Source: Methanovulcanius yangii
GTDB lineage: Archaea; Halobacteriota; Methanomicrobia; Methanomicrobiales; Methanomicrobiaceae
Reading direction: 5' to 3'
NCBI RefSeq assembly: GCF_018687785.1
Contig: NZ_LTBL01000001.1
Span: 1-64,000 of the forward strand
Length of the DNA stretch: 64,000 nt
Part shown: positions 5,653 to 24,303 of the stretch, one piece after another
How the letters are laid out: each line of letters starts with the position of its first letter
How positions within the stretch are numbered: position 1 is the first letter of the stretch
Position numbers and translations under genes: made by a program
Notes under the pieces: model-generated
The model's input: the letters and a program-made list of their open reading frames with translations, nothing else
Database searches by the model: none
What the model was told of the DNA's origin: nothing

Positions 5653-6016
5653 ATGCACGTGTATTCATCAAATCAGCAGAAAATCGCCGAACGAATCGAT
5701 CCCGAAACACTCAAATCAAACTGGAAAGACTGGGAGTGGCAAATTGGCCACTCCATCCGTGACATTGACACGGTTGAACGCCTCCTTGGCATTCAGTTCC
5801 CGGCTGACCGCCGTGAAGAGCTTGAAGAGACCATTGCACGCTTTCCTCTTTGCATCACGCCATATTATCTCTCCCTCATTGAGGCAGGTGATTATGATAA
5901 TGATCCTGTCTTCATGCAGGCCTTTCCTTCGATCTCCGAACTCATTGTCGAAGAATACGACCTGCCCGATCCCCTTGCCGAGGATGCGGACAGCCCTGTC
6001 CCTGCATCACCCACCG
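5653..6016 (+). pseudogene. N-terminal fragment of ablA ending at a chimeric junction
   Basis: The first 120 or so residues match lysine 2,3-aminomutase at 24304. One C is missing near 6000 and homology ends at base 6016, before the radical SAM cysteines. The sequence that follows encodes a different gene on the opposite strand. The catalytic core is absent, so no enzyme can be made from here. The junction is the right-hand end of the duplicated block and probably a false join. Confidence 0.9.
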
Positions 6017-6205
6017 ATACATATGGTCGGTCTTCTTCAGGATGGACTCGAGACGAAGGATGGTCGCCCGTATCCCCTCAAGCACGCGGCCGGTCTCAAA
6101 ATGGGCTTCACTGATGATAAGGCCTGCCTGAATGACGATCGAGAGGGGTTGATCCCAATCCCTTCCTGGAAATGCTCCCTCGCTGGTTTCAGCCGTTTGT
6201 TTCAT
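6017..6205 (-). CDS. Hypothetical protein, C-terminus cut by the junction
   Basis: A short reading frame starts at an ATG (6203-6205) with GGGGAG about nine bases upstream. An earlier in-frame ATG at 6236-6238 is possible. About 63 residues are read before the junction at 6016, after which the frame runs into copy A sequence and is not genuine. The visible part is probably helical, with a mix of charged and aliphatic residues and no cysteine motif. The family is not recognised. It lies downstream of the AOR-MoaD genes on the same strand, about 245 bases away, so a link to that operon is possible but unproven. Confidence 0.45.
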
Positions 6206-6449
6206 GACATGTGTCTCCCCTGTTTCAATCTCGGCCATGATGGGTTATGGTGGTTCGGCCGTGCCATCGCGACATGGCATGTACACCCGTGGGGTTTTGG
6301 TCATGCGCTTTCACCGGATGCCCTCGTCCGTTGGTATCTGGTATGTAACCTCTCATGCTACATAATATTCGGGATATATCCGGGAACGGGATCCCTGAAG
6401 CAAGTGAAGGGATAATCTCCGCCAAATGGGGTATATTGGTCCGAAATGC

Positions 6450-6742
6450 TCATCCACCGGCCACAGGGGGGAAGAGGGCAATGATATCACCGTCTTCGAT
6501 CACCGTTTCCATTCCATCTAAAAATGAATGTTCCGTCCATTTTTCAGGATATTGACATACTTTTTGAGTTCTCCCGTTTCCGTGAACACCATGTCCCCGA
6601 GCCCGGCGTACCTGGTGGTGAGCAGATCCAGCAGCATGCCGACGGTGGTTCCTCCGTTAATGTCGAGGGCAATGGTCGCATCCGCAACCTCGCGAAAGGT
6701 TGCGAAGGTTTTGACGGTGATCGATATGGGCTGTTGTGCCAT
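6450..6742 (-). CDS. MoaD/ThiS-like ubiquitin-fold sulfur carrier (one-base frameshift)
   Basis: This small beta-grasp protein resembles MoaD, which carries sulfur as a C-terminal thiocarboxylate for molybdopterin or tungstopterin synthesis. The uninterrupted frame ends early at 6518. Adding one T to the T run near 6527 restores a tail reading FLDGMETVIEDGD, then LFPPVAGG and a stop at 6450-6452. The di-glycine end is the family hallmark. The intact protein would have about 97 residues. It follows the aldehyde ferredoxin oxidoreductase gene by 90 bases on the same strand, which fits a pterin-dependent enzyme. The frameshift is probably an error. Confidence 0.8.
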
Positions 6743-6832
6743 GGTCTTTGATAAGGGCCGGTCTTTCCCCGGATATGGACTGTCCCGGATTTTCAGACCG
6801 GCCCGGCTCTCCGCAGGTATTTCCCTTTCTCT

Positions 6833-8603
6833 TCAGTGTATTGCCAGTTCCTTCAGTTTTTCCGTGGTTGGGACTCCTTTTTCATCCCATCCCCGGAGAG
6901 CGTAATATTCCTTCAGGAGTTCGTCACGCTTCCAGACCATTCCTTTCGGGGCCCCCTCCTGGAGGGGTTCTGCCAGAAGCCGCGGAGGGAGGGTATCGGT
7001 CTCCATTCCAATCCCGCGATCGAGATTGAAGAGTTTCTGGAGGTTCCAAATCCGCTCGCCCACCTTCATGAGCCTGCGGCATCGAACCGGATGCCGGTCG
7101 CGGCGGTCATGAGGTCGGCATAGTCATCGGCATCGAGGGCAAAGGAGGTGAAGAGACACATGCCGCTTGCATCGATTGCCGCTGTGAGGTCCTGGAAGGT
7201 CTTCACCCACTCCGGTTTGTTTACGGTCTCGTACGGGTCGAGTTTCTCCGGTGCACCAAGGACTCGGGGGATATCATATACGCGTAGACATGATCGCCTC
7301 CCCGGACCGAAGTCGCATAGGCAAGCCCGTGTCCCTGGAGCCCCGCGGATCATATGCCGGAAGCTCCTGTTTTTTCACGCTCATGGAAAGTTCCGGGTGG
7401 CCATGGCGTTCGGCAAACCGGTAGGAACCATCCGCAAGCTCTTCCCCGATTCCCTCGCGTGTCGCCATCTGCCTGAGCACGGCGAGCATCCCTTCGGCAT
7501 CGCCGAACCGGATGGGATGTGTGATATACCCCTTCTCTGCCATCTCCATGAGGCAGGCGATGGTCGCTCCGGCTGAGACTGCATCAAGGCCGTACTCGTT
7601 ACAGATGTTATTTGCGAGGGTGATCGATTTGAGGTCGTCAATGCCGCAGTCGGGGCCGAATGCCCAGTCCGGTTCGTACTCGGGCCCTTCCCCGGTTATC
7701 CCTCGAAATCATGTATTCGTCCGCACTGGACGATACATGCATAACACCCCTTCGGTTTTTTGAATATCGTCTCCTTGATGGTCTCTCCCGACACTTTCTC
7801 CGCTCCCTCAAAATGGGCGCTCTGGAAATTATTTGTCGGGAGAATGTAGTTCTCGTTGATGATGTTGACCAGAACAGCGGTTCCGTAGTCATGGAGGGCC
7901 TGCGCGATGCCGTCGGCCTCAATCTTTTTCCGTATACGGTCCTTGACAAGATTGAGTTTGTCGTCGTCGGCGACTGCAATCTCCTGCTCGCCCCGTACTG
8001 CAAGGGCTTTGAGGTTTTTCGATCCCATGACGGCCCCGCTGCCCCCCTTCCTGCGGCCCGGTACTTTTCATTGATGACGCAGGTGATAAGGGAAAGCTTC
8101 TCGCCGGAGGGTCCGATGCAGGCGACCCGTATCTTTTTGTCATCATGTATCTGCTGGATGATGTCCGTCGTCTCACTGGTCGTTTTTCCCCAGATCTCCG
8201 CGGCGTCATACAGGGACACCTCTCCGTTGTCCAGGAAGAGGTAGACCGGCCGGGGTGCCTTTCCGGCGATAACCACCGCATCGAATCCCGCCTTCTTCAT
8301 CTTCCATCCGAAGACACCGCCGCTGTTGGAACTGATGGCGCATCCAGTCAGGGGAGAGAGGGTTGAGATCTCATATCTGCTTCCCAGCGGAATGCCCGTC
8401 CCTGTGAGCGGCCCGGAGGCAAAGACAAGGACATTGTCCTCGCTCAGCGGGTCAATATCCGGGAGCACCATGTCGGTCAGGAACCTGATCCCAAACCCTC
8501 TCCCGCCGATATAGTCCTCTTTCAATGACGCAGGAGTAGGTTTGACCTTTACCGTCCCCGCTGTCAGATCGATATACGCAATATTGCCTGCATATGCATC
8601 CAT
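6833..8603 (-). CDS. aor: Aldehyde ferredoxin oxidoreductase (five apparent one-base frameshifts)
   Basis: This is a tungsten-pterin enzyme that oxidises aldehydes to acids and reduces ferredoxin. The N-terminus shows the AOR signature: Gly-Arg-Gly-Phe-Gly near residue 35, then [17 protein letters not shown] and [16 protein letters not shown]. The motif CYACIVQC supplies iron-sulfur cysteines. The reading is broken near 8044, 7701, 7344, 7262 and 7073. Adding one base at each place, mostly in a G/C run, restores a continuous protein of about 590 residues, close to the family's 600. The start at 8603 has GGTGAT upstream. A MoaD-like gene follows. I expect an intact gene in the organism. Confidence 0.9.
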
Positions 8604-8634
8604 CACAATCACCAACCTCAACTACAGATTCCTC

Positions 8635-8645
8635 ATATTTAAGGG
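8635..8645 (-). promoter_or_regulatory. Candidate TATA box of the AOR operon
   Basis: On the minus strand the segment reads CTTAAATATGA and lies about 35 bases before the AOR start codon. That is a suitable distance for an archaeal TATA element serving a transcript with a very short leader. It was picked by eye only. Confidence 0.4.
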
Positions 8646-8761
8646 TATTGTGGGATGGCTCGTTATTTGGCAATCCCTGCTTGAAAAGAGGAATTCGCCC
8701 GAATGAGGGGAATATCCGGGGAATCAGATGCATTATTAAGGAAAATACGGTGAAATGGGCT

Positions 8762-10656
8762 TTAGTCGAGGATTCTGTGTTCGGCACTCTTAAGGATCTT
8801 TTCCAGCATTTCCGGATATGATACCCCCGCGAGGGCCGCCATCTTTGCGAGATGACCGTCCCAGCACCACCCGGGATTCGGGTTGACTTCAAGGAGCCGG
8901 GGGGTGCCGTTGTGATCGAGACGCCAGTCAAACCGTGCATAGTCCCTGCATTTCAGCCTCCCGAAGAGCTTGAGGCAGCTTGCCACGAGGAACCGCTGCA
9001 CATCCTCGGAGAGATGAGCCCGTACGGACCTGAGGTTCCAGTACGGGGAGGACGGGTCCCACTTTGCCTCGTAGCCGCAGATCCGCGGTAGGACGAGGGG
9101 AGTGCGGAGTAGTCCTCCTCGATGATCGGCAGCACCTCATACATGTCCGGGAGGTTTCCAATGATGCCGACACTGATGTCACTGCCGGAGAGGAACTCCT
9201 CGACGAGGATGGAGGTCTCCTGTCCACACCTGGTCCTGACATCCTCGATCGCCTCCTGCAGCTCTTCGATATCTCCACAGACACTCTTCCTGGTAATTCC
9301 TACACTGGAATCCCCAAGGTTGGGTTTGACGATAACCGGGAACCTGAGAGGCTGTTCGATGAATGAACTGTCGCCGGGAGTGATCATGAATGCCTTCGGG
9401 ACCGGGATGTCAAGTTCATGCGCAACACCACGCACAAGGGACTTATCGTAGCAGTAGGCAAGACACTGGGGGTTCCCGCCGGTATACGGGATGTCGAGCA
9501 TCTCCAGGACGGCCGGAATATGAAGTTCCCTGAGGGGATCGTTGAAATATCCTTCATCACAGAGGTTGAAGATGAAATCCGCCTTCTTACCCTTCTGCTG
9601 AAGGGTTTTGATAAGTGTCGCATGGTTGTCTACGTAGGTGAATGAGTAACCATCGCACTTCGAAAGGGCCGATTTAAGCTGCTCGATGGTGTAAAAATCA
9701 TCCTCGTCAAAGACGCATGACGGACGGACCCTGTCCTTCAGCCGCGGGTCACCCATCACGACGGTCACGCTGCGTTTTGCCTTTGCCACCTGCTTTCTGG
9801 ACGTCCACTCCTTCCGTACCCGTGCCGTGATGACCAGACGCCTGCCCATCATGCCGAGATCGTGGTTTTTCCGGGATTTCGGGATGATGGTGTCGTGGAA
9901 GGTGATGTCGTGGTAGCCGCATGCCCCAAGCATCTCTTCGATGCGTTCCCGGCTATAGAGTCGCTCCGCATAAAACTGGTCCGCAAGCACTCCTTTTCGG
10001 ACATGAGTGATCACCTCGCGTGAAATGAGTTTTTCGCCGTCCTCCGAGAGGCTTCGTTCACGGCAGACGAAGTAGTTCTGGTCGATCCACTCCCAGCTGC
10101 GGGGTTCATAATGTTCCTTCAGCCACGCGCCGTCGGCGATATCCAGGAGGAGTGTTCCTCCCGGCTTTGCCACCCGGAACACTTCTTTGAGGATGCTTTG
10201 ATCATCTTCATATGATTCGAAATAACCGAAACTGTTGCCGGGGATGAGGACATGGTCGAAGGTGTCGGCCTGAAAGGCAAGTTTTCGTGCATCACCTTCG
10301 CGGAAACTGATAGCCAGTCCTTCATTTTTTGCCTGCTTCTTCGCACGGGTGATGAGATAATGGGAGCGATCCAGCCCGGTAACGTCAGAGAATCCCCGTC
10401 GTGCAAGCTCGAGCGAGTGCCGTCCCTGTCCGCAGCAGAGATCAAGAATGGTATCGCCGGGACAGAGGTTCAGGGCACTGCAAAAGAGATCGACTTCTTC
10501 CGAGGTAATGGAGGTGTCCTCGATCACATCACCATCCGTACGGAGGTAGTTTGCGTTGAAGATCTCCCTCCACCAGTCGGCCCTGACATAGCTCTCCAGG
10601 CTTTCAACAGGGCCAATATAACTGGTTATTTTAGAATTAGGCGCAATTTTACTCAT
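8762..10656 (-). CDS. SAM methyltransferase fused to a D-Ala-D-Ala-ligase-like ATP-grasp domain (one frameshift)
   Basis: Residues 1-280 form a class I methyltransferase: motif I reads ILDLCCGQGRHSLELARRG near 71, followed by a post-I Asp. From about residue 290 an ATP-grasp domain begins, with FNLCDEGYFNDPLRE and GNPQCLAYCYDKSLVR like D-alanine-D-alanine ligases, then VIVKPNLGDSSVGI and, near the C-terminus, a metal-binding LLEVNPNPG. One base is missing in the G run at 9097-9100; restoring it gives 631 residues ending at 8762. The substrate is unknown; such enzymes ligate amino or carboxyl groups. The gene is monocistronic, divergent from the gene at 10943. Confidence 0.85.
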
Positions 10657-10712
10657 TAATTTGCCTTATGAAATGTATGGTACCTCTGTTTACGTAATAA
10701 AGCTATCTGCGC

Positions 10713-10749
10713 CGCCTAAAATTTCATCTTATTAAAGTGTTTTTAGGCG
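10713..10749. repeat. 9-bp inverted repeat between divergent genes
   Basis: CGCCTAAAA (10713-10721) and TTTTAGGCG (10741-10749) are perfect inverted arms with a 19-base AT-rich spacer. A further half-copy, TTAGGCG, occurs at 10637-10643 beside the start codon of the minus-strand fusion gene. The position between divergent genes suggests a regulator site, but no regulator is identified. Confidence 0.5.
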
Positions 10750-10942
10750 TTCTCTGTGAATTCGCCGCACATGCAGAAGGCATGCGCGCATCGCCGATTC
10801 AACCTGAGCCTCCTGTTGTCCCTGTGGATGTCCGCTGGCTGCCGGGGTGCCCCCACATTGCCTGGTCGCCCTCTGGTTTGATATCGGTGCATGGTCAATA
10901 GAAGACTATGCCGCACCTGTCCCGTTCACGTTTCGGGGATAT

Positions 10943-11580
10943 ATGACGATATTCCTTCAGGTGATGATCATCTTCATAATCATCGACAGTATGATGGTCG
11001 GGAACTACTCCTATGTCTTTGGCGGTTTTATTGTTCTTCTCCTCACCATGGTCCCGATGATCATGGAGCGGGAAGTACATATTACAGTCCCGTGGTGGCT
11101 GACATTTCTCATCGTTCTCTCCCTCTACATCCATATCGGCGGCCAGTATTTTGACTGGTATACCACACTATACCCGTATTACGACAAAATAGCGCATTTC
11201 ATATCGGGAACGACCGTCGCGCTCATCGGATTTACTCTGGTGCTCCTCCTCGATCAATACACCGAGAACAACTTCAACCGTCCGGTCATCATCTTCCTGA
11301 TTGTCATGCTGACGGTAGCAGTCGGCGGGCTCTGGGAGATCTTTGAATATACCGTCGACACATTCCTGGGAATAGAGATGCAGCACGGGCTTGACGATAC
11401 CATGCTGGATATGATCTTCGTCCTCCTGGGGCGGTCATCGTTGCTGCCCTCGGCAATATCTATCTGAGGAAGATTTCAAAACGGGACCTCTCCCGTCTCT
11501 TCCTGGGAAATCCCGACCTTGCGGAGAAGGTCTATGAATGCATTTCAGAACTTCCTGTCCGGCGAAGAAAACAGGAATGA
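10943..11580 (+). CDS. YjdF/DUF2238-like multi-pass membrane protein (one frameshift)
   Basis: About six hydrophobic segments, with YDKIAHFISG and GGLWEIFEYTVD, match the YjdF/DUF2238 inner-membrane family, whose function is unknown. I start at the ATG at 10943, preceded by CGGGGATAT; longer in-frame starts lack a ribosome site. The uninterrupted frame runs into the wrong phase at the GGGG near 11428. Adding one G restores a hydrophilic tail (LRKISKRDLSRLFLGNP) and a stop at 11580, giving about 212 residues. The gene ends 35 bases before the convergent polyprenyl synthetase. Confidence 0.75.
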
Positions 11581-11614
11581 GGTAGAGAGGATTGGGCCAC
11601 AACCATTCACTGAA

Positions 11615-12720
11615 TCACACCTCATAGGCCATATTGACGAGATTTGCACAAATTACGCGGAGCATGAGCTTTCCCGGCGAGGGGGGAATCCGGCGGGAGA
11701 ATGCCGCCCACTCCGCTTCGATATGTCGTATAGCCTCGCCGGAACAGTCTTCCAGGGCTCCCGATGCCCGTACAAGATCGATACCTTCCTGGAGGACGAC
11801 ATCCTGCATCCGGAGTTCGGGTGTGCAGAGGATGGCGGTCAACCGGTCGGAGCGATCCCGGTCCAGCAGATCGAGGGCCCGGAGGATGACATAGGTCGGT
11901 TTGCCGTTTCTGAGATCCTCGCCAGCCACCTTTCCCCATTTTTCGTCGCCGGAGAAGTTCAGCACATCATCGATGATCTGAAAACCGATTCCCATGGTCC
12001 TGCCGAACCGGAGGCAGGCCGCTCTCGTCTCCGGTGTCACGTCCTGCAGGATGCAGGCAAGCTCCGCGACCCCTTCCGTCGCCGATGCCGTCTTGTAGGC
12101 GTACATCTGGAGGATCTGCTCGTCGAGGTGCCCCTCCCGCCACGTCGTCAGAGCGGCGGGGGAGAGATTCCTTGACCAGTAGATGTCCTGCCCCTGGCCG
12201 AGGTGCGCCCGCAAAGAGGTATTGGTCATCAGCCTGAGCACGTCGTGCTTCTGGTCGGGGGTAAGGTCCGGGCAGGACGATACGATGCTTTGAGGAAAGA
12301 AGTAGAGGGTGCTTGCCGCGTTGATGGCAATATCCGTTCCATATCTCTGGTGAATGGTGGTGTCACCCCGCCGGAGCAGCGACTCGTCCTCGATATCATC
12401 GATGATGAGAGCCGCCGAATGAAGGAGTTCGGTCATCACGAAGAGTTTCTCCGTCTCTTCGGTGGACCTGACGCCTACCGCATCGGCTATGAGAATGCCG
12501 AAGATCGGCCGCCAGTGCTTTCCGCCCCGTGAGAGGAGGTCCCAGACCGGTCGCGAGATGGTCTCGGTAAAGGGAGTGTAATCAAGGATGGGTTGTGTCT
12601 CACCGAAGAGAGAGGCGCACCATGCTTCATCGATCTCGCGGGGGAAGAGCTGTTCGAGCCGTTCGTTGATCTTCCCTTCAAATCGTCCGACAAAGTCCGC
12701 TACGTCCGCAATGAATCCAT
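11615..12720 (-). CDS. Polyprenyl diphosphate synthase
   Basis: A trans-prenyltransferase that condenses isopentenyl diphosphate units for archaeal lipid or quinone chains. The substrate-binding region reads RGGKHWRPIFG, the first Asp-rich site is IIDDIEDE, and the second is FQIIDDVLNFSG, with GEDLRNGKPTYVILRAL following. The domain is about 370 residues, the normal size. In the sequence as given it has no start codon of its own in frame and is continuous with the CrtC-like gene upstream. An ATG at 12718-12720 lies one base out of frame; one extra base near 12703 would give a start MDSLRT followed by VADFVG. I favour a separate gene with a one-base error, but a true fusion is not excluded. 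Confidence 0.85.
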
Positions 12721-13879
12721 AGCCGCAGAGTTCCAGCTGGCCGCGTCCGGATACGCCTTCTTCTCCTATCTTCCCCGTGACACTCCCCGACCCTTCCCAG
12801 AGACCGCCGTCCATCCCGATGATCTCGATCTCCTGCTGATCCGTTGCGGGAGAGAAATGCAATATCGCATCGATAGCGGGTATCGCAAACTCCCATTTCA
12901 CCGGGTAGTGAATGTGAGTCCGCGGGCTCTCCCACGTACGAATGGGGCGTGCCGTTATCCGGGGGTGCCATTCTGCAGTGCCGTCCTCAGAAAAGAGGAT
13001 GCAAAATGTTGAGACCGTCTCCTTTGACCGGAGGTTTCGCCGGTGCATGAGCATCAGGCAGCGCCCGTCATCCAGCTGTATGCCGCACCAGTCCCAGCCG
13101 AGAGGATGGTAACAGGGTCGGCCGTCCGTTTCGATACATCCGGTCTCCTCCTGCTCTGTGAGGAACCATTCAGTCCCGCCGGACTGGTAATCGCACCATG
13201 CCTCCCCGGAGACCGGCGCCCCTCCTGCGACACCATTGAGCTTCAGGCGCGGGCAGGTGACATATTCCATGCCGATGGCACCCGACGGCGCGATGGATGA
13301 AAGGTCAGTAAACGGGACCTGGGGAATGAGGGCGCATGACATCATCTCCCCGTGGGTCGGGTCATGGAAGGTGATGATGATCTCCTCGTCAAGAAACGTG
13401 ATTCGGGCGTCGTCCCAAGTCACCGAGAAAGGGGTCTTCTCGGTCTCCATCGTCGTCGGCGGGCAGTTAATGGGGGGATAGAGGCCGTGCTCCTCAATCT
13501 CCCTCCTGATGGTGTCACTGACGTACCTGCTCACGCCGAGTCTGTCCGGGAACGTGTCGAGCTGCCTGAGGTACCAGTTGTGCAGCGACGCATCCACCCG
13601 CACTTCCCGGTGGTGAACGCCCGTTGCCGCATCGACAACAGAGCAGAGATACATCGCACCAGGGCTCCGTATTGCCTCACCCGACGGACCGGCATCATCC
13701 GCAAGCCGGAGTGAAAAGAAACAGATGGTAAAATCCCGCCGGCCAAAATCTTCCCCCTCAAAATAACCCTGTATATACCACCATCGGACAAAGGGGTCGG
13801 CATCCCCGGAGAACATCCGGCGGGCCATATCGGCGGCAAGACCGGGTGGTCCGGTCTTCTCCGCAACTATTCTTTCCAC
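12678..13879 (-). CDS. CrtC-like (carotenoid 1,2-hydratase/lipocalin-fold) protein
   Basis: The region resembles the hydroxyneurosporene synthase (CrtC) family of paired lipocalin-like domains: FVRWWYIQGYFEG near the N-terminus, then GWDWCGIQLDDGRCLMLM and YPVKWEFAIP further on. The family includes water-adding enzymes on terpenoids and structural relatives, and the substrate here is unknown. I choose the GTG at 13877-13879 because a TATA-like box lies about 28 bases upstream, giving a near-leaderless transcript. The frame continues without a stop into polyprenyl synthetase. If one base is missing near 12703, the gene instead ends at 12678 and overlaps the synthetase. Adjacency to a prenyl synthase suggests an isoprenoid role. 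Confidence 0.65.
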
Positions 13880-13902
13880 CTCATTCCCTGAAAGTCGGCA
13901 TG

Positions 13903-13913
13903 CCAAAATATAA
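13903..13913 (-). promoter_or_regulatory. Candidate TATA box of the CrtC-like/prenyl synthase genes
   Basis: The minus strand reads CTTATATTTTGG here, about 28 bases before the GTG start at 13879. This spacing fits an archaeal promoter whose transcript starts at or next to the start codon. It was found by eye. Confidence 0.5.
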
Positions 13914-13988
13914 GATTTCGGAATGTACGATGTCAAAACAACGAAATGGGATGCAATAGAGAGGTGTCGGTCCCATCCTGCCCGTCGG

Positions 13989-16756
13989 TTATTCGGTGCA
14001 GGGGATGTCCTCCGGTGAAATCCTGTGTATGATCCCGTTTCCTCCGTCCATCTCCACCCACTGGCCGTCTTCAAACCGCTCAGTCGCCCGGGTGACCCCC
14101 ACGATGCAGGGAATGCCATACTCCCGAGCGATGATCGACCCGTGCTGGAGGAGCCCCCCACCTCAAGGATGACCCCGCCGGCTGTCAGGAAGAGGGGTGT
14201 CCACCCCGGGTCCGAGGCGCTGATGACGAGAATATCCCCCGGAAAAACCTCTTTTTCAGTCGGATGGTGAAGCACCCTGACCGGACCGCGGGCGGTTCCG
14301 TCGGAGACGCCGTATCCGGAAATCTCTGCCCCGTTATCCTCCCCATCCGTGTTGGGGCGGATGATCCGCCCCGAGGAGTCGATGACCGGTGGGTACCGGC
14401 TGACCCGGTTCATCCTGCCGAAGCGTGTCCGGTTTGCGGCAACGGCGGGCTGCATCCGGACCCCGGGATTGTCGAGTGCGGCCTGGATATCTGCAATGGA
14501 GAGGCAGAAGACCTCATTTGCATGCCCGATCTGGTTCCTGGATGCGAGAATCTCTCCCGCGGCAAGGGCACGCCTGCGCACCCTTGCGGTGACCATGACG
14601 AGGTAATATTTATGATCTTCACGGGTGCCCCCGAAGATGTCGAGCAGGGTCTCCATCCGAACGAAGAGACGTTCCTGCAGCCTGCCTTTTTTCCTGCTGT
14701 AGTCACGCAGGAGGCGGCACGCCTCCTCACGGCGGCGGCGCTCGTTCTCAAACCGCTCCGCGGGTCCCTGCCCCCTGAGATCTGCCTCTCTGTAGGTTCG
14801 TATCTGGGAAAGGGCAAGGAGCGGGTCGTTGGCGTACCCCGGTGATGCAGGATCGATCTCCCGCGGTCCCCGGAACCCGTATTCTTCCATGAAGTCCGTC
14901 CATTCCTTCATGAACTCCTCGGGCATCTCTCCCTGACGAATCCGCTCCGCAAGCATGGTGACGTCGTCGTCGATTTCGCCCCCTGCAAGAAGGGAGAGGC
15001 GTGACAGGGAGAGCGCCATCCCTGTCGTCCGGTTATTCGGGAGGGCACGGTCAACCCTGTCGGCAAGCGCCCGGATGTCATCGGGTGCTCCGGCAAACAT
15101 CCTGCGGACCGTCATGCGGGCGCACTCGGAGTTGATCAGGGTTGCACCGGTCTTCTCCTTCACCCACCAGACGATCAGCCGCCCGGCCTTCTCACAGTAC
15201 TCACTGAACGGGAGATCCTGCAACTCGAGTTCATCGAGTGACGCAAGGAACTCAGCCTCCGATCTCCTGCACTCACGGGATACCGCCTCAGGGGAGAGAA
15301 ATCCCCGTCCCGCATGGAGAAGGAGGTCGCGGGACTGCCAGAGGGAGGCCGCCGTCATGCCCCGGAGAAGAGCCGGACGGACGGGATTTTTCCATGCTGC
15401 GGGGTCGCAGTCCCGTATGATCGCTGCGGAGGAGGTGTCCAGTCCCCCAAACAGAAGGTCGATCATGCGTGGATGCATGATCCACAGGAGATTGGAGATG
15501 TTAAGGTACATCCGTCCCTCCGTCACCTGGGCAATGCCGCAGATTGCATCCCGGCCCGCACAGGAGTTGCCGGTGAGCGACTCTACCGTACAACCCAGAA
15601 TCCCGTCCATCCATGAAGACCCGAGCGGCGAGAGGGCGCCCTGCATCCCGTGTTCGACGAGTGTCAGGTCAAGGTACATCCGTACCGGCTCCCCTCCGCC
15701 GCCGGTCCTCAGGGCTTCCGGCAGCGGCACCATGGTGGTGATGGGGCGGGCTTGGAGGATCATCAAATTGCCGTCCTTTCCTGCCCATTCGACATCGACG
15801 GCATCACCGAATACCTCTTCCGCCTTCAGGACGAGGTCACGCAGAACGAAGGGGTCGTATCCATCCAGGCAGAACCGTTCGCTGTGGTAACCGTGACATT
15901 CCCTCACTCCGCCGCCGGGACGGGCGAAGCAGGCGATCTCCTTCGCCCCGGTCTTCCGGTCGACGATCGTTGACCCCTGCCGGGTGAGCACTAGTTCATC
16001 GGGTGATGTCCGGCCGGTAACGATTGTCTCCCCCAGTCCCCATCCGGCATTGATAACGATCTCCTCCCTGCTGTTGGTGACCGGGTTTGCGGAGAACGCG
16101 ATGCCGGAGATATCGGCGGGAACCAGTTTCTGGACGATGACCGCCATTGCCGGAGGGCCCGGGTCGCGTCGGTGGGCCCTGTGGTAGGAGAGGACCCGGC
16201 CCTCAAATGAAGAGGCAAAGACCCTGCGAATCGCATCCTCGAGCCCGTTCGTCGTCACCCCGATCTCGGTCCGGTAGATGCCCGCAAACGATGCCTCCTG
16301 CTCGTCCTCCGCGGGTGACGACGATCGTACCGCCCAGATGCCGGGATCGGTGCCAAGGCGCCGGAGTGCAGACGCCAGCACCTCTCCCTGAAGTGGAGAA
16401 AACGCAAGGCCTGTGCAGTGATCCTGCAGTGCCTTCACACCGGATTCCGCGATCGGGGTGCCGGATGCCGCCATGGAGCGCCAGACCTCCGTTGCCATCA
16501 CCGATGCGGACCATGACGCAAAGAACGCGGTGGTGAGAACACACCCCGGGGGGACGGGAAGCCCTGCCCTGCACAGCTCCAGGAGGGAGAATGCCTTTCC
16601 ACCAACCTCTTCGATGGCGGCCGACCCCTCGTCACCCGGAAACAGAATCGAGCATCTGGACGAATGTACCCGTGGTTTTCCCGTCGGGAAGTCTACGGGG
16701 TGATGGGGTTCCTGTTCCTGCGCTCCGGACGAATCCGCCGCAGGCGTGTGCTCCAT
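13989..16756 (-). CDS. Rifampin-phosphotransferase-like PEP/ATP dikinase (one frameshift)
   Basis: The N-terminal third is a pyruvate-phosphate-dikinase-type ATP-binding domain: VGGKAFSLLELCRAGLPVPPG, WAVRSSSPAEDEQEASFAGIYRT and DVEWAGKDGNLMILQARPI. A long middle domain follows. The C-terminus is a swivelling phospho-His domain. Order and length (about 922 residues) fit rifampin phosphotransferases (ATP, substrate and His domains) better than PEP synthases, which carry a C-terminal barrel. One C is missing near 14156; restored, the His loop reads GGLLQHGSIIAREYGIP and the gene stops at 13989-13991. The start at 16756 is the nearest ATG before the conserved domain. The substrate is unknown. 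Confidence 0.8.
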
Positions 16757-16890
16757 AGTACAGAAAATCTCTCTGCCTGATGACTTGAATATGCTGGAAC
16801 AGGACCCGTCCGATGAGCGGGGGAGGGATGTGGGGATGCACGAAACATTAGGGCAATGACATCCGATCCGTATAATATCCAAAAAAATAT

Positions 16891-17712
16891 TCAGATGTAT
16901 TCGACACTCAGGGGATCTCTCTTCGGCACTCCTTTGCTCCGGAGCTTGGGTAAACCAAATATCAGTGCGTAATTCGGGAGATAGCCTTTTGGAATATGCA
17001 GTTCCTCCTGGATCGGGAGGTATTCCTCCGCTGCCAGCTTGAGAGTCCCCAGCCAGCATGACCCGACCCCGTAGGCCTTGGCCACGAGTTCGAACCAGGT
17101 GAGGGCGATGGCAGCGTCCGTGACGGCAAATGGGTTGTTGGTGGGTACTGCCGCGAAGATGATATGCGGAGCATTCCGGCAGACGAGGTCGATTCCCTGA
17201 TCATAGGCCTCTATCATTCCGTTGAAGATGTCGGCATACGGGTGATCAGGCTGTTCGCTCATCACTTTTTGCATCCACTCGATGGCAAGGGCGGATATCC
17301 TCCGGACCTTTTCGGTGTCCATGATGACAATGTAGTGGACCTTCTGCCGGTTTGCAGCGGTCGGTGCAAACCGCACGGTCTCCATCACATCGTCAAGGAC
17401 GCGGGGGTCCACCGGCTTTTTGCGGAATTGCCGGATGGACCGGCGGGACTGCATGAACTTGCCGAACTGGTCCGGTTTGATGTCCAGGGCCCGGGGATTG
17501 AAGTTTGCCGGATAGTCTCCTTTGAAATCTACTTTCAGTGCGTCAAAAGGACAGAAAACCTCGCAATGACCACATCTCATGCAGCGTTTCTCCTTGTCTT
17601 CGGTCACCAGAGGATAGTCGCCCTTCTCCATCGAGATAATGAAGGCAGGGCAGACATTGACACAGACTCCGCATTTCGTGCAGTCATCCCTGCTTACGGC
17701 AATGACACTCAT
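16891..17712 (-). CDS. Ferredoxin-nitroreductase fusion protein
   Basis: Residues 1-70 hold two 4Fe-4S motifs, CTKCGVCVNVCP and CMRCGHCEVFCP. The rest is an FMN nitroreductase domain with SRRSIRQFRKKPVD and RFAPTAANRQ, followed by a GVGSCWLGTL segment. Such fusions pass ferredoxin-level electrons to a flavin; the natural substrate is unknown. I use the ATG at 17712, which puts the first cluster at the N-terminus. An ATG at 17808 would add 32 residues, and neither has a clear ribosome site. It is transcribed divergently from the QueG-like gene, sharing a 330-base intergenic region. Confidence 0.85.
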   Translation of the reverse strand: MSVIAVSRDDCTKCGVCVNVCPAFIISMEKGDYPLVTEDKEKRCMRCGHCEVFCPFDALKVDFKGDYPANFNPRALDIKPDQFGKFMQSRRSIRQFRKKPVDPRVLDDVMETVRFAPTAANRQKVHYIVIMDTEKVRRISALAIEWMQKVMSEQPDHPYADIFNGMIEAYDQGIDLVCRNAPHIIFAAVPTNNPFAVTDAAIALTWFELVAKAYGVGSCWLGTLKLAAEEYLPIQEELHIPKGYLPNYALIFGLPKLRSKGVPKRDPLSVEYI

Positions 17713-18045
17713 GGGGGTCATGATGGTGGTGGAGGTGATAAATGCTCTCCTGTGGGAATCAGTGAATCGGTAAAATGCAGTGTATTTTTGGAGATATTCG
17801 TCATTCATGTATGTATTATCAATTTCATCGGATGAAACGAGTGAATATCACCTGGATGCCGTATTCGCCATGATATGTGTTCGTTTAGAACAATCGCGAT
17901 ATGAATGTGGGTTTGAATGATCATCCGTGGGTGCCGGCGGACCGTTGCATCGCCAGGAGGGATGTAGGAATTCCGGTACCGGATAAGAGGCACTGACTTC
18001 CGGAGAATCTTTCAAATACCACTGCGATAGCTCATAGTGATTACA

Positions 18046-18852
18046 ATGGATGAAGATCTCAGGGAGTCGATTCGTCAACGGTGCCGTACAATGGACATCC
18101 CGCTCGTGGGAATCGCCGGTGTGAAGCGGTGGGAGCATCCGCCCTTTACCCCATGGATGCCGGAGGCATTCTATCCGCAGTCCATCTTTCCTGAGGCCAG
18201 GTCGGTGATCGTAATCGGCCTTCCGGTCGACCTTCCTGTCCTTGAGACTGCACCCTCCATCTATTATCACGAGCTCTACACCACTGTCAATACCCTCCTG
18301 GACCAGTATACCTATCGGCTCGCCTCGTACCTGAATGGAGAGGGGTATCCGTCGGTCTTCGTCCCCCGCGACGGCTACGGGAGCATCGATGTCCTGCTCG
18401 AAAACCCCGTTGCCTTCTTTTCTCACCGGCATGCCGCGTACATGGCCGGTCTGGGAACGTTCGGCGTAAATAACATGCTTCTGACCCCGGAATACGGGCC
18501 ACGGGTCAGGTTCGGTTCGGTACTTACAACCGCCGAACTGCCCGAGGACCCGGTCATGGAAGAGGAACTCTGTACCAGATGTATGGAGTGCGTGCTTCGC
18601 TGTCCCGCGGGCGCACTGGAGGAAGGTGAATATCCCGCCGTCCTGACTGACAAGAAGGCATGCGCAGAGAACAGTGAACGCCTCCACCGCAAGCGCATCG
18701 CCCCCTGCGGTATCTGCCTGAAAGTCTGTCCTGTTGGCCGGGATCGGGTGCATTTCCGTCGTGAGGATATCGGCATGTACGCGGATAAGGAGCATTTCCC
18801 TGCCCATCACCGTGCCTGGAAGCATGTCCGGTCATACGGGGGGAAAAAGTGA
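18046..18852 (+). CDS. QueG-like double-cluster 4Fe-4S protein
   Basis: A 268-residue relative of epoxyqueuosine reductase. It has the family's N-terminal region (ARSVIVIGLPVD) and two 4Fe-4S motifs near the C-terminus, CTRCMECVLRCP and CGICLKVCPVGR. Canonical QueG is longer and cobalamin-dependent, and archaea generally do not make queuosine. A different reductase role is therefore likely, as in many methanogen homologues. The ATG at 18046 is preferred over a GTG nine bases upstream. The 3' half is duplicated at 1-232. Confidence 0.8.
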   Translation: MDEDLRESIRQRCRTMDIPLVGIAGVKRWEHPPFTPWMPEAFYPQSIFPEARSVIVIGLPVDLPVLETAPSIYYHELYTTVNTLLDQYTYRLASYLNGEGYPSVFVPRDGYGSIDVLLENPVAFFSHRHAAYMAGLGTFGVNNMLLTPEYGPRVRFGSVLTTAELPEDPVMEEELCTRCMECVLRCPAGALEEGEYPAVLTDKKACAENSERLHRKRIAPCGICLKVCPVGRDRVHFRREDIGMYADKEHFPAHHRAWKHVRSYGGKK

Positions 18853-18953
18853 TTTTGGCGGGGAAGGCCCTCCCCTTCCCCCTCCCCTTCCTCAGTGGGA
18901 ATGTCTCCTCTTTCGGTCGCGGCAGAGGGGTGGTGAATTTCCGTGAACCGGGG

Positions 18954-19514
18954 CTACCTGCCCGCCGGCGTATGCTCCTTCACGAGCCGCATCAGCTCCG
19001 TGAATAACCGGTCCCTCACATCCTGAACGACGAGTGCCTCGTCCAGGGTCAAAAGACAGCTATCCTGTGTCTGATAGCGTGACGGGGAAACCTGAATGGC
19101 ATAGGTGTTGGGAGTCTGATCCCAGAACCAGTCGGCACTCCCGAACTGGATATACTCCGGGTCGTTCCTTGCGATCACACGGAGATCCTCGCAGAGAAGA
19201 TGGCCCCGGCGGCTGTTTTCGATGCAGAATGCCACGTAGGCGATACGGTAGGTTACCCTTCTGACCTGGGTTGCGCCGGGTTGCAGCCGTCTGATAGTGT
19301 GGATGTCCTGCGTTCCTGCATGGACAAAATGGCCGTAGCAGCTCTGGAGTGTGTAGCAGGAGGGCACCCGTGAGAAGGCCCGTATGAGGGGCAGCAGCGG
19401 AGGGTCGATCTCCCCGTTCCTGATGACTGATGTGAGATCCTCCAGAGCCTTCTCGCGGCCCGTGTCGAATCCTGCGAAGGTGATCATGGGGCGGGGAGGG
19501 GTGAACGTCTCCAT
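18954..19514 (-). CDS. Hypothetical protein with distant Taw3/TYW3-like motif
   Basis: A 186-residue protein. REKALEDLTSVIRNGEIDPP followed by SCYTLQSCYGHF recalls the start of Taw3, the archaeal wybutosine N4-methyltransferase, where a short helix precedes a Ser-Cys-Ser-Gly segment. The remainder is not clearly Taw3. I choose the ATG at 19514: a TATA-like TTTATACGG on the minus strand lies about 30 bases upstream and there is no ribosome site, so the message would be leaderless. Function is not assigned. Confidence 0.6.
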   Translation of the reverse strand: METFTPPRPMITFAGFDTGREKALEDLTSVIRNGEIDPPLLPLIRAFSRVPSCYTLQSCYGHFVHAGTQDIHTIRRLQPGATQVRRVTYRIAYVAFCIENSRRGHLLCEDLRVIARNDPEYIQFGSADWFWDQTPNTYAIQVSPSRYQTQDSCLLTLDEALVVQDVRDRLFTELMRLVKEHTPAGR

Positions 19515-19701
19515 AGGGGGGACAATGATTCTTCTCCGTATAAAGGAGTATGGTGGGGGGGTTCGGAGATGCAGGGACGGGAGAACCGGCAACGCGATGC
19601 CTCCCGAAAGGGTCTGCTCTGCTTCATCGGCATCGTATGTCCTTCATCTCCCCGGGGAGGGCGGGTGGTATGGAGAAGGGGGCCCTGATGGCATCTGGTG
19701 C

Positions 19702-20559
19702 TCAGTCCGACGGCGGCGACTCCCTCTTTCTCCACCAGATCTTCACATGATGAGAGTGTCCGGGGATGGTGTATGTGGTGCCGTCACTTCCCATATGGGC
19801 CAGAATATACTGTCGGAGCACGTCCTTCTGGGCCGTGGTGGCTGCAAGGACCTGGGGGGCAAAGTACTCCACGGCTGCCTCGGAGGTCGGGAAGACATAG
19901 GTGTGGGGGAAGGGTACGGATTCGACACTGGGGTAAATCCCCATGCTATAGAGCAGGTTGTATATGATGTCGCATTTCGGCGGGCTGGCAAATTCCCTGC
20001 CGTGGAGTGCCGGCCACAGGGCACATGACATCATCTCCCAGGGGGTCAGGCCCGCAAACCAATAGATGGCGAGATAGTCTGACGAGGCTGCAATCATCGT
20101 CCCGATGGCATCTTTGATATCCGGCACGTTCAGGGAGTTTCTGGCAAAGACGATGTCATATGGCCCATCCAGATCGGCGGAAACATCCACATCCTCCCAG
20201 AGTTTCTGCAGGGTGTCGACGTTTGACACACTTTCGGTCGCTAGGTTCTCCCGGAGTACGGTATACATCCCCCCCGATGGTTCGACGGCGGTGACGTGAG
20301 CGACCTTCCGGGCAAGCGGGATGGTAATTGACCCCGGTCCTGCCCCGATGTCCAGCACGCGGGCAGTGGGGGCCAGAGGAAGGCCGGCGAGAACGGGGTC
20401 GACACGGGCATTACGATGCTCCAGTGATTTCCGGTAATAATCACGTGCCGCATCCTCGTTGTCCCAGTAGGCAGCCCCTGTCTGTTCCATGCTGGCATCG
20501 CGGTACCTGTTCCACTGCCGCTTCCATTTTGTATTCCAGTCTGTCGCATTCAAAGTCAT
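19702..20559 (-). CDS. Class I SAM-dependent methyltransferase
   Basis: A 285-residue protein with motif I ARVLDIGAGPGSITIPLARK, an acidic motif II in VTAVEPSGG, and motif IV near DGPYDIVFARNSL. It resembles small-molecule methyltransferases of the UbiE/Methyltransf_25 type. The substrate is unknown. GGAGAAGAG lies immediately upstream of the ATG at 20559. It is divergent from the ATP-grasp gene, with a 289-base gap holding no other gene. Confidence 0.85.
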   Translation of the reverse strand: MTLNATDWNTKWKRQWNRYRDASMEQTGAAYWDNEDAARDYYRKSLEHRNARVDPVLAGLPLAPTARVLDIGAGPGSITIPLARKVAHVTAVEPSGGMYTVLRENLATESVSNVDTLQKLWEDVDVSADLDGPYDIVFARNSLNVPDIKDAIGTMIAASSDYLAIYWFAGLTPWEMMSCALWPALHGREFASPPKCDIIYNLLYSMGIYPSVESVPFPHTYVFPTSEAAVEYFAPQVLAATTAQKDVLRQYILAHMGSDGTTYTIPGHSHHVKIWWRKRESPPSD

Positions 20560-20848
20560 CTCTTCTCCAAATATCCCATCTCAGAGTATTTCCTCCCGCA
20601 CCGGCTGACAGCTGCAGGCAGATGCGGATGGCCCGGCAAAACCTGCCGTGCACAGCGTACATGGCAGAATGGAGTGTTCGGACAGATAAATGTGGCAGAC
20701 CCTTCCCGGTGCGACACCGGCAAGCAGTCACCGGCGATGCATCCCCATGGGGGCTGAGAAGATGTCCGGGGGGCCGGGAGGGTGAATACCGCCTCTTCCG
20801 GCATTCTTTTGCCATTCGTCCTGCAAATGAATACAGGACTGATGAGGT

Positions 20849-22021
20849 TTGATAGTACTGGATGAACCCTATGTATCCCGGTATCTTGTGGACACCATAG
20901 TGACGATGGACCTTCCTGTTCTCAGAAATGCAACATCAGTGAGAATGAACACGGACGGACGGATGCGCCTCGTCGACGGAGCTGAAGTAGTGCGGTGCGT
21001 ACACGAGGGCGATTGCCGGATGTATACCAACTCGGAGCATGCGATAGGATGGATTGCGGAGCATCTGGGCGAAACGGACCTTGCGAAAACCATCGCCCTC
21101 TTCAAGGACAAGGCAGCATTTCGAAAACTCATCTCCGGCCTGTATCCTACGTTTTTCTTCCGGTCGGTCCCCTTCGGAGAACTGGATATGCTTGATGTTG
21201 CGCTCCTCCCGAAACCGTTTGTCATCAAACCGGCGGTTGGCTTCTTCAGTGCGGGTGTGCATGTCGTCCGCACGGACGAGGAATGGACGGACGTCCTTGA
21301 CGCCATAAAGACGGGTATGGAAGATATCGCTGCAGGCTATCCGCCGGAAGTCTGTGACGCCGGGACCTTCATCATCGAAGAGTATATCGAAGGAACGGAA
21401 CTTGCGGTGGATGCGTATTTTAATGCGCAGGGTGAACCGGTGGTACTCAATATTCTTGCCCATCTCTTCTCCTCAGTTGATGATGTCGACGACCGGGTCT
21501 ATCTGACCTCAAGGAAGATTGTTGCGGAGCAGCTTGCGCCGGTAACCCACCTTCTCCGGCGGATTCAGGCACTGATGGGAATCACAAATTTTCCCCTGCA
21601 TATTGAATTGCGGGTGAATGATGACGGAAAGGTCGTTCCCATCGAGGTGAACCCCCTCCGCTTTGCCGGGTGGTGCACGACGGACATTGCGGAATATGCC
21701 TGGGGCATTAATGTCTACAGGTTCTATTTCGAAGGGATGGTGCCCGACTGGGATCGGTTGCTGCAGGAAGTGGGTGATGATGTGTATGCCCTCTTGGTGG
21801 TGCAGCCGCCTGCGGGCACGGTCCCGGAGACGATTGCCGGGTTTGATTACGAAACCTTTGTCGCAGGGTTTTCCGAACCGCTTGAATTGCGTCCGGTAGA
21901 GTATCCCCGGTATCCGGTCTTTGGATTTTTATTCACACGGATGAAAGGAGGAGTCCTCTCCGAGGCGGAGGCCTATCTGCGCTCCGATATGCAGGATGTC
22001 ATCCGCTTCAGGGAGAGGTGA
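20849..22021 (+). CDS. ATP-grasp ligase of unknown substrate
   Basis: A 390-residue ATP-grasp protein. KPFVIKPAVGFFSAGVHVV is the nucleotide-binding loop, FIIEEYIEGTELAVDAYF the central strand, and ELRVNDDGKVVPIEVNP the metal site. It resembles carbamoyl-phosphate-synthase-like amino acid ligases. The start is a TTG at 20849 with GATGAGG just upstream; no ATG precedes the conserved N-terminus in frame. It sits alone between a divergent methyltransferase and convergent permease genes. The product cannot be predicted. Confidence 0.8.
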   Translation: MIVLDEPYVSRYLVDTIVTMDLPVLRNATSVRMNTDGRMRLVDGAEVVRCVHEGDCRMYTNSEHAIGWIAEHLGETDLAKTIALFKDKAAFRKLISGLYPTFFFRSVPFGELDMLDVALLPKPFVIKPAVGFFSAGVHVVRTDEEWTDVLDAIKTGMEDIAAGYPPEVCDAGTFIIEEYIEGTELAVDAYFNAQGEPVVLNILAHLFSSVDDVDDRVYLTSRKIVAEQLAPVTHLLRRIQALMGITNFPLHIELRVNDDGKVVPIEVNPLRFAGWCTTDIAEYAWGINVYRFYFEGMVPDWDRLLQEVGDDVYALLVVQPPAGTVPETIAGFDYETFVAGFSEPLELRPVEYPRYPVFGFLFTRMKGGVLSEAEAYLRSDMQDVIRFRER

Positions 22022-22134
22022 TCCTCAGGAAGGAAGAGTGGGAGCGGCGGATTGGGACCGGGCGCCCCGAGTCGCAGCGCCCAGGTCACCTGATCGAATT
22101 ATTCACGTGGTGTTCTGAATGGGCGAACCGGTGG

Positions 22135-22713
22135 TCAACGGCTCCGGCCGACCCACAGGACCGCTTTTTCGCAGCAGATGCCTGCAAAAAAGGAGAAGAT
22201 AATCAGGTAGAGGGTCAGGACGGCAGTGAAGGCACCGCCGAAATAGTAGATCATCAGGGGGATGAACGGCAGCTTTACCGAACGCATATAGAGAAAGACC
22301 CCCGAAAATGCGATGCGCATGCCCTTTTCCTGGAAATCGGCAAGCATTGAATACCATACATAGACGGGGCCGGTTGCGATGATGCCTGCCACCACTGCAA
22401 GAATCCATCCCTTGATACCCGATTCATATCCCAGGTGGCGGGCAATCGCCTGCGGACGAACAAAGAGGTCGATTACGAAGAACAACACGAAGACCAGAAC
22501 CAGGACCGGGAGAATCTGGAGGATGATCCCGATGAATGTCCGGACGGCTTCACTGAAGACCCCGTAATCCCGGAATGCCAGGATGAGGTAGCATGCAACG
22601 GCAATTCCCAGAAAGATCATGGGAAACGCCGGTTGCCCCCTCCCGCCCTTCGGACCGGTGCCGTTGTCTTTCATCCTGTCTCCCTGCGAGGTCTTTTTCT
22701 GCATCCCGTTCAT
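22135..22713 (-). CDS. Permease, second half of a split COG0701-type transporter
   Basis: A 192-residue membrane protein with four or five hydrophobic segments and the family phrase ATGPVYVWYSMLADFQEKGM. COG0701/DUF318 permeases are usually single proteins of about 300 residues; here two adjacent genes encode halves. It starts inside the stop of the preceding gene (ATGA overlap at 22710-22713), so translation is coupled. The transported solute is unknown; relatives handle organoarsenicals or thiols. Confidence 0.75.
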   Translation of the reverse strand: MNGMQKKTSQGDRMKDNGTGPKGGRGQPAFPMIFLGIAVACYLILAFRDYGVFSEAVRTFIGIILQILPVLVLVFVLFFVIDLFVRPQAIARHLGYESGIKGWILAVVAGIIATGPVYVWYSMLADFQEKGMRIAFSGVFLYMRSVKLPFIPLMIYYFGGAFTAVLTLYLIIFSFFAGICCEKAVLWVGRSR

Positions 22714-23222
22714 GCCCCCACCCCTATCAGGATGAGGGTGGCCTGTGTGAGGACGGCGATGATGACGGCAAAGAAAAACCCGCAGAGGTTGCGTGTGATT
22801 GCAAACCTGCTTCCGAGAGTATTCATCTCGACCGGCAATTGGATGAGGCCCACCGTCACCCAGGCGATGATAAAAGCGGTCACTGCTGTGAGGCTTACGC
22901 CGAAATTCAGGAGCTCTCCTCCGATGACGTAGCTCGTGACCGGGTTTCCTGCTGCAATACTGCCGATCGTCGCCCCCGCAAAGGGATCGGCAACAGGGTT
23001 TCCGGTAAATACCGTCCCATACATCTCCGGCGGAATGAGTGTCAGTGCAAGGCTGATGAGAAGAATTATGCCGATGATCTGGGGAATTATCTGCAGGAAG
23101 GTCCGGTATGTCCTGATAGCACTGCTCTTCACATCCATATATCTGATTGTGTGGTGCCGCGCCAAAATACCTGCCGTGGCGGAGGCAAAGGGTTGCCCGC
23201 GTGCGGTTTCGTCCTCCTTCAA
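22710..23222 (-). CDS. Permease, first half of a split COG0701-type transporter
   Basis: A 170-residue membrane protein. About four hydrophobic segments, with IGSIAAGNPVTSYVIGGELL and QLPVEMNTLG, match the predicted permease family COG0701. The ATG at 23222 gives a 28-residue hydrophilic extension. A start at 23138 (MDVKSS) would fit the membrane part better. The stop overlaps the second half's start by four bases. The two probably assemble as one transporter. Confidence 0.75.
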   Translation of the reverse strand: MKEDETARGQPFASATAGILARHHTIRYMDVKSSAIRTYRTFLQIIPQIIGIILLISLALTLIPPEMYGTVFTGNPVADPFAGATIGSIAAGNPVTSYVIGGELLNFGVSLTAVTAFIIAWVTVGLIQLPVEMNTLGSRFAITRNLCGFFFAVIIAVLTQATLILIGVGA

Positions 23223-23341
23223 CGAATGGGTCCGGGGCTGTCGAAACGGCCGTCCGTCTTTGTGGTATGCCTGTCGCGCAGAGACAACCGCCCCCCCCCT
23301 CCGTTGGCAGTTGTCGTTTTTGCGGAAATTAAGCAGTGCGT

Positions 23342-23806
23342 CTACCAGACTTCAGGGAATGCCATGTTCGTGAATATGTCTTCCAGGCGTGCCTTGTGAT
23401 GCGACTCCATGTTGGCCAGGTTCGTGAAGATCTGCTTCTGCTGCGGCCCGGTACTCAGCTCGGCCAGTTCCCGGTACATATCGCGTGAGAGTTCCTCTTT
23501 TTTGATGGCCAGTGCAATACCGTCGGCGGGTTTCATCTCCGTCGTCATCGTCGGAAGTTCGAGGGTTTCGGATATCTTGTAGTCCTGTGCCTCGTCGAAC
23601 TCCAGGGACTTGATCGGTTTTGTCAGGAATTCCTCAAGGGTTTCCCTGTGTTTGCGTTCTTCGTCTGCGAGTTCTCCAAAGATCTTCTTCAGGGTCTCGT
23701 CATTTGTGCAGCTTTCGATCTCGCGGTAGAAGGTGTAGGATTCCACCTCTTTTTCAATTGCTCCGGATAATATGCTCCTGTACTCTTCTTTTTTCAATGG
23801 TATCAC
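23342..23806 (-). CDS. Ferritin-like (rubrerythrin-type) di-iron protein
   Basis: A 154-residue four-helix protein. EKEVESYTFYREI, then ADEERKHRETLEEFL, and in the second half KKEELSRDMYRELAEL and ANMESHHKARLEDIF, supply the repeated Glu and ExxH iron ligands of the ferritin/rubrerythrin fold. There is no rubredoxin domain. Such proteins reduce peroxide or store iron in anaerobes. A GGGGTGAT ribosome site precedes the ATG at 23806. Confidence 0.85.
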   Translation of the reverse strand: MIPLKKEEYRSILSGAIEKEVESYTFYREIESCTNDETLKKIFGELADEERKHRETLEEFLTKPIKSLEFDEAQDYKISETLELPTMTTEMKPADGIALAIKKEELSRDMYRELAELSTGPQQKQIFTNLANMESHHKARLEDIFTNMAFPEVW

Positions 23807-24303
23807 CCCTTTACGAGGATGAGGGAATAGTGCAGGTGATGATATAAAAAATATTACCGGCGTCTACGACGGCTGCTGCACGGGTGGTCAGGCTTTTCTC
23901 CTCCCTCCCGTCTGCGCTCTCCTCTCGGGTTGCCGGATGCGACGGTGACGGTGGTTTGGCAATACGGGAATATGGGGCATCACAGAAAATCCCCGGAATG
24001 GATTGAATCGAAAACTGATGCGTAATTTGGGTTGAAACTCACTTTTGGCCATGTAAATGTGGTGATCTTCCAAATGATCAGGGTATTGTCCGGGAATATG
24101 TAAGGGGGGGATCTCCTGCCCCGATACAGGGATACCATGGCTGAGATCAGCGCAATTTGCAATTCGGGGGGGGAGATCAAAAATATCTCAATTCGAACGT
24201 ATTTTGCCCATCCGGACAAAATTATTGGGTTTTTCCTCAACACTTAATATGGATGGCACAGATAGGTTAGAAGACCGGACCACCCTCCAGGGAATGTTTT
24301 TTT

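Follow-up and report, generated by a model that had tools for sequence, protein, structure and literature searches.

The 64,000 nucleotides of Methanovulcanius yangii DNA analysed here (the window) form the start of a 2,278,866-base contig and contain a minus-strand frame in which a CrtC-like, double-lipocalin sequence runs straight into a polyprenyl synthetase. The locus raises the question of whether this is a true fusion or two genes merged by a missing base, and of what such a protein would do. A preliminary description had considered the two readings equally simple. When the frame from 13879 to 11615 was translated, no stop was met over 754 aa, and relatives as little as 36-38 % identical retain this single frame. 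No ATG, GTG or TTG occurs between residues 375 and 449, where the only alternative codons are CTG at 382 and ATT at 390; the synthase has no in-frame start of its own, as had been described. The aligned first codon is also V by translation in both congeners (VERI/VARI/VAEI). An AlphaFold2 model built from a three-row alignment was too poor for use (pLDDT 32.9). The features of the locus are collected in Table 1.

Table 1. Features of the fusion locus and of the gene directly upstream, in window coordinates unless residues are given.
Feature	Position	Strand	Remarks
CrtC-like/polyprenyl synthetase fusion gene	11615..13879	minus	754 aa; probable GTG start at 13879
Double-lipocalin (CrtC/AttH-like) half	12710..13879	minus	residues about 1-390
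CrtC N-terminal lipocalin (PF07143), sub-threshold	residues 32-96		E 0.005; 17.9 bits vs cut-off 22.5 (Pfam)
Codon of D230	13190..13192	minus	aligned with acid Asp268 of RgCrtC via Roseobacter CrtC
Lipocalin_9 (PF17186)	12719-13099	minus	residues 261-387; E 7e-22 (Pfam)
Inter-domain linker	12566..12718	minus	residues 388-438; colinear in alignments, gap-free in two congeners
Polyprenyl synthetase domain (PF00348)	11825..12565	minus	residues 439-685; E 4e-54; profile 2-235/251
First Asp motif DDIED	12386-12400	minus	window protein
Second Asp motif DDVLN	11957-11971	minus	fifth position Asn, not Asp
PEP-synthase/rifampin-phosphotransferase-like gene	13989..16684, approximate	minus	directly upstream; broken in window by lost C at 14153

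The contig closes with 22 kb that match window positions 1-22049, the pattern of a circular chromosome whose ends were left untrimmed, and the locus is assembled three times (in the window, at C1:2249774-2252035 and at C1:2268438-2270699), with all 754 aa identical in the three copies. A stretch of about 18.66 kb occurs twice in tandem at this end of the contig (overlap and duplication together involve window 1-22049 and 18625-24668 and C1:2244159-2278866), its copies differing by indels only, and may be a real duplication or a product of assembly. Since the tandem may be an assembly product, with reads possibly shared, the three copies were not counted as independent loci. Compared from window 6013 to about 22049, they differ by single-base indels only, nearly all in runs of one base. 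Eleven single bases present in both other copies are missing from the window copy, at positions 6519 to 14153; 4 bases are absent from the contig-end copy, near its end. Deletions in the window copy break frames, such as that of the DUF2238 gene at 10847-11467, which encodes 224 aa in another copy. At 8953-10656, a methyltransferase domain is joined to a D-Ala-D-Ala-ligase-like ATP-grasp domain in a protein of 567 aa with a lost base at 9086; this protein has 631-632 aa in two congeners.

The coordinates 11615-13879 given in the preliminary description cover only part of the window's open frame, which continues to 17059 and, from its first start codon, would encode 1814 aa, passing through a gene that contains PPDK_N. 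Between stops this frame counts 1861 codons, versus 856 in the other two copies. Taken as it stands, it could be read as one three-part protein with dikinase-like, CrtC-like and synthase parts, but it is exclusive to the window copy, the dikinase-like gene and the fusion lie apart in G001, G002, G008 and G390, and we regard such a protein as next to impossible. The 1814-aa frame is an artefact of the C lost at 14153, which merges the upstream dikinase-like gene with the fusion. Because the other two copies have the extra C, the dikinase-like gene stops on its own in them and the fusion is separate. The region is thus prone to deletions, as had been stated, but the relevant one is at 14153, upstream of the fusion, and not near 12703. 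The case shows how a true fusion can be told from a homopolymer artefact only about 270 bases upstream of it.

At the junction itself, the preliminary description had offered two overlapping genes merged by one base lost near 12703, with the synthase beginning MDSLRT at 12720. Single bases are indeed missing elsewhere from the window copy (the 11 within the comparable part of 6013-22049), and MDSLRT is encoded at 12720, but its own frame meets TAG after six codons and its ATG is absent from both congeners. No homopolymer of four or more bases was found between 12650 and 12760, and no indel distinguishes the copies within window 11428-14152. Alignment of the window sequence with the two congeners gave zero gaps over residues 370-445, where changes at codon positions 1/2/3 numbered 34/19/103 (228 codon pairs, three sequences). 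The same fusion is, moreover, carried by other families and phyla. Given that the copies agree, the congeners are gap-free and the ATG is unconserved, we rejected the loss of a single base and put its probability close to zero. The two readings are therefore not equally simple, the fusion being backed by three identical copies and by relatives. Almost certainly, the 754-aa frame is a genuine two-domain fusion of CrtC-like and prenyl synthase parts.

A search for the same fusion in relatives, as the preliminary description had advised, covered 60 near genomes, with the source genome counted among them, and recovered it in five. These are the window's own genome, its congeners G001 and G002 (77-78 % identity to the window protein), G008 from the same family (56 %) and G036 from the same order (38 %). 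Among 199 genomes of the order, 15 matched at E 1e-60, a listing threshold that weakly scoring separate genes could escape. Twelve of these carry the protein whole and in a single frame, two are broken inside a domain (G499 at model 277/301; G453, with matches 9-313 and 539-723), and one, G284, holds a C-terminal remnant of 176 codons; in none of the 15 is the frame split into two genes at the domain boundary. Across the phylum (392 genomes, 1e-40), 38 genomes matched, comprising six whole fusions, the G284 remnant and 31 matches to essentially the synthase half only. Lipocalin_9 was detected in 11 of 294 phylum genomes. The five in the window's order all have it as the fusion; the other six lie elsewhere in the phylum, where its frames measure 95-592 codons. 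Between families, the fusion diverges down to about 36 % identity. A second, partial copy of the fusion C-terminus, 61 % identical to the window protein, lies on a 3.5-kb contig of G002 (L044, G002:C144).

The bacterial search was confined to a plasmid collection, so the spread that it gives is a lower bound; 262 records matched and two covered at least 80 % of the query. On plasmids, Tolypothrix PCC 7601 and 7712 and Streptomyces canus carry the fusion architecture, while in Nitrosomonas stercoris the N-terminal half is degenerate and Pfam detects only the synthase that follows it. The Tolypothrix PCC 7601 protein is 1509 aa long and carries sulfotransferase and glycosyltransferase domains, with the lipocalin/synthase pair as its C-terminal half. 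Close to the gene of this protein (L075:9463-13992) are genes with ABC-exporter annotations (membrane fusion protein, DevC, ATPase). The neighbour of the S. canus fusion is a divergent ABC transporter pair, and a similar pair accompanies the unfused Streptomyces NBC_01431 synthase; in two Streptomyces relatives of the synthase, no lipocalin half is detectable. For five S. canus plasmids (L099:4004-4717, H7-H11), the match to the fusion is limited to its C-terminal part (query 525-746) and lies, in each, no more than about 5 kb from an end of the record. The bacterial records are annotated as "polyprenyl synthetase family protein" or "hypothetical protein". The constituent domains are all from known families and the joined genes are already in public records; their combination is undescribed in the papers found by our literature search, most subscription journals being outside its coverage.

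A synthase-domain tree was built with every other haloarchaeal row (12 of 23), omitting the fragments L044 and L099 and counting identical domains once; the whole fusions of G421, G427, G437 and G474 stand outside the tree and the alignments. The eight archaeal fusions formed one group (100/100), which joins the bacterial fusions and two unfused Streptomyces synthases (98/86), a join made uncertain by long bacterial branches. The three bacterial fusions group together only with the two unfused Streptomyces rows included. A 100/99 branch separates the archaeal fusions from the IdsA-type synthases of the order.

The synthase half, which continues past the PF00348 match to the C-terminus of the protein at 11618, passes the cut-off of that family (184 bits vs 27), as do matches in 11 of 11 members, and its best structure matches are the GGPP synthases 1wy0 and yeast 2dh4. 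In addition to the two Asp motifs (Table 1), the window protein has GKHWRP, LLH, RRG, GQGQD and KTAS; together these correspond to the family motifs, with the Asp-rich pair and the IPP-binding K, R and H. The second Asp motif departs further in another clade (NDIHC in G036, DDIQS in G210 and G316). The residues that an active enzyme would need are present in this half, and elongation is predicted. Five residues before the first Asp, the fusion has Ala and the genome's own IdsA has Phe. A small residue also occurs at this place in some C20 synthases, and a chain-length prediction from it was rejected for that reason.

In the lipocalin half, Lipocalin_9 was recognized with 78.4 bits against a cut-off of 26.2 and matches 10 of 11 members, and PF07143, for which the window protein falls below the cut-off, matches 7 of 11 at E <=0.01. 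The N-terminal half also matches the structure 2ich, a putative AttH (profile E 1.4e-27). In a study on the Rubrivivax gelatinosus CrtC (PMC4717167), where an AttH from Nitrosomonas europaea served as template, Ala mutants of His239, Trp241, Tyr266 and Asp268 are reported as inactive, protonation of the alkene followed by addition of water is proposed as the mechanism, and some activity on the C20 geranylgeraniol is noted. The Roseobacter CrtC has, by our own reading, the H-x-W and Y-x-D pair at the same spacing, and the R. gelatinosus residue numbers were placed through it rather than through the Rubrivivax sequence. So placed, D230 aligns with Asp268, Trp228 with Tyr266 and Tyr206 roughly with Trp241, and His239 aligns with no His. 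The Asp is kept in eight of eight aligned archaeal members; Glu takes its place in S. canus and Ser in N. stercoris. The earlier label "CrtC-like" therefore holds at the level of the family group, but only the acid Asp of the four essential CrtC residues is clearly kept. The Trp-x-Asp motif is common to the fusion and two stand-alone archaeal relatives, and since the latter share it, it need not mean hydration. None of the four window neighbours scanned together with the fusion is a carotenoid gene.

The gene directly upstream was delimited by mapping its end at 13989 from an unbroken copy and its start near 16684 from a profile match; its frame is unbroken in two other copies, and its length is 884-902 aa in G002, G008 and G390. 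In G001, G002, G008, G390 and the window's own genome, it directly precedes the fusion on the same strand, and match coordinates place it directly upstream in G421, G427, G437 and G453 too. These nine are all the family-f1/f4 fusion matches except G284, in which the fusion is a remnant and the dikinase-like gene is absent; the synteny of G284 with G390 suggests that the two were lost together. Five f5 fusion genomes (G036, G210, G316, G474, G499) gave no dikinase-like match at 1e-100, and inspection of three f5 loci showed no such gene near the fusion. The profile matches 12 of 199 genomes, taken as the same set as in the fusion search: nine with a fusion match, with a best copy of at least 1357 bits, and three without (G007, 943 bits; G042 and G037, about 381). 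In G001, two in-frame TGA codons occur in the dikinase-like gene (L119, G001:C40:8065-10731), from decay or error.

The encoded protein has an ATP-binding domain first, then a large middle part and a His domain, which in G008 ends at 888 of 894 and leaves no space for a further domain. Its best structure matches, 5fbs and 5hv1, are labelled PEP synthase; we take them to be the Listeria rifampin phosphotransferase. For the G002 protein, the best NCBIfam score among the matches listed was 393 bits against a cut-off of 945, and the cut-offs of rifampin phosphotransferase (NF041857, 336 bits vs 999) and PEP synthase (TIGR01418, 229.8 bits vs 739.75) were missed as well.

Given these features of the sequence, the protein most likely makes a prenyl diphosphate, with its lipocalin half predicted to acid-catalyse hydration or cyclisation of the chain. 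The synthase half would elongate allylic diphosphates with IPP, which we infer from the Asp motifs and the IPP-binding K, R and H in the window protein. The lipocalin half would then take up the hydrophobic chain, the fusion handing the product straight from one site to the other, and D230 would protonate a prenyl double bond. Acid catalysis on a prenyl chain by this half appears likely from the alignments. In line with the mechanism proposed for carotenoid 1,2-hydratase, water could quench the resulting cation, leaving a tertiary alcohol, and where the upstream phosphotransferase-like enzyme is present, it may spend ATP to phosphorylate or ligate the product. Sulfotransferases and glycosyltransferases commonly modify hydroxyl groups, and we counted in favour of such tailoring both the Tolypothrix pair fused behind domains of these kinds and the phosphotransferase-like gene upstream in nine fusion genomes. 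A hydratase mechanism is our best guess for the lipocalin half, held tentatively; as three of the four essential CrtC residues are not kept as such, we do not call it a carotenoid hydratase.

The lipocalin half could instead be a protonation-initiated cyclase, making the fusion a bifunctional terpene synthase with a logic comparable to that of fungal prenyltransferase-terpene synthase chimeras. The aromatics Trp228 and Tyr206 are about where CrtC has Tyr and Trp, and the CrtC authors compare its acid Asp and aromatics with squalene-hopene cyclase (PMC4717167). The N-terminal half, however, matches no cyclase family in Pfam, and class II-like chemistry would be an analogy only; we consider this reading unlikely. 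Alternatively, the half may perform no chemistry but bind the finished chain and aid its release or its transfer to a partner or the membrane. Lipocalin folds commonly bind hydrophobic ligands, N. stercoris retains the synthase with neither the Asp nor a lipocalin that Pfam can see, and the two Streptomyces synthase relatives with no detectable lipocalin half point the same way. Against such a carrier stands the Asp, present in all eight aligned archaeal members though they are as little as about 36 % identical, and we hold this role to be improbable too.

With acid catalysis as the preferred reading, we tentatively propose a thinly spread archaeal and bacterial family that would build a prenyl chain and hydrate or cyclise it in one protein, and which in two methanogen families may work with an ATP-dependent phosphotransferase-like partner in a pathway of two genes, leading to a modified isoprenoid undescribed in these organisms. 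If the mechanism is true, some methanogens would possess an enzyme dedicated to a functionalised isoprenoid that lies outside their known lipid pathway, and CrtC-type chemistry would be coupled to chain synthesis in one polypeptide. The upstream gene is a genetically linked partner of the fusion.

Compared with known systems, the lipocalin half resembles CrtC (PF07143; Rubrivivax, Thiocapsa, Roseobacter) as a related lipocalin-type family with the acid Asp at the aligned place, and by analogy may share its action on prenyl-type chains. It differs from CrtC in its fusion to a prenyl synthase, in the loss of His239 and in the replacement of Tyr266 and Trp241. AttH is likewise similar in fold, as the match to 2ich indicates, but stands alone, while the half described here is fused. 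Like GGPP synthase and the long-chain trans-prenyl diphosphate synthases, the synthase half is a whole domain with DDxxD, the IPP-binding residues, GQxxD and KT; unlike them, it has DDxxN as its second motif and no start codon of its own, and it is 30 % identical to the genome's own IdsA-type synthase, from which it forms a separate lineage. The neighbouring gene shares with rifampin phosphotransferase, PigC and PEP synthase the order of an ATP-binding domain, a large middle part and a final His domain, and departs from them in scoring, for the G002 protein, far below the NCBIfam cut-offs listed.
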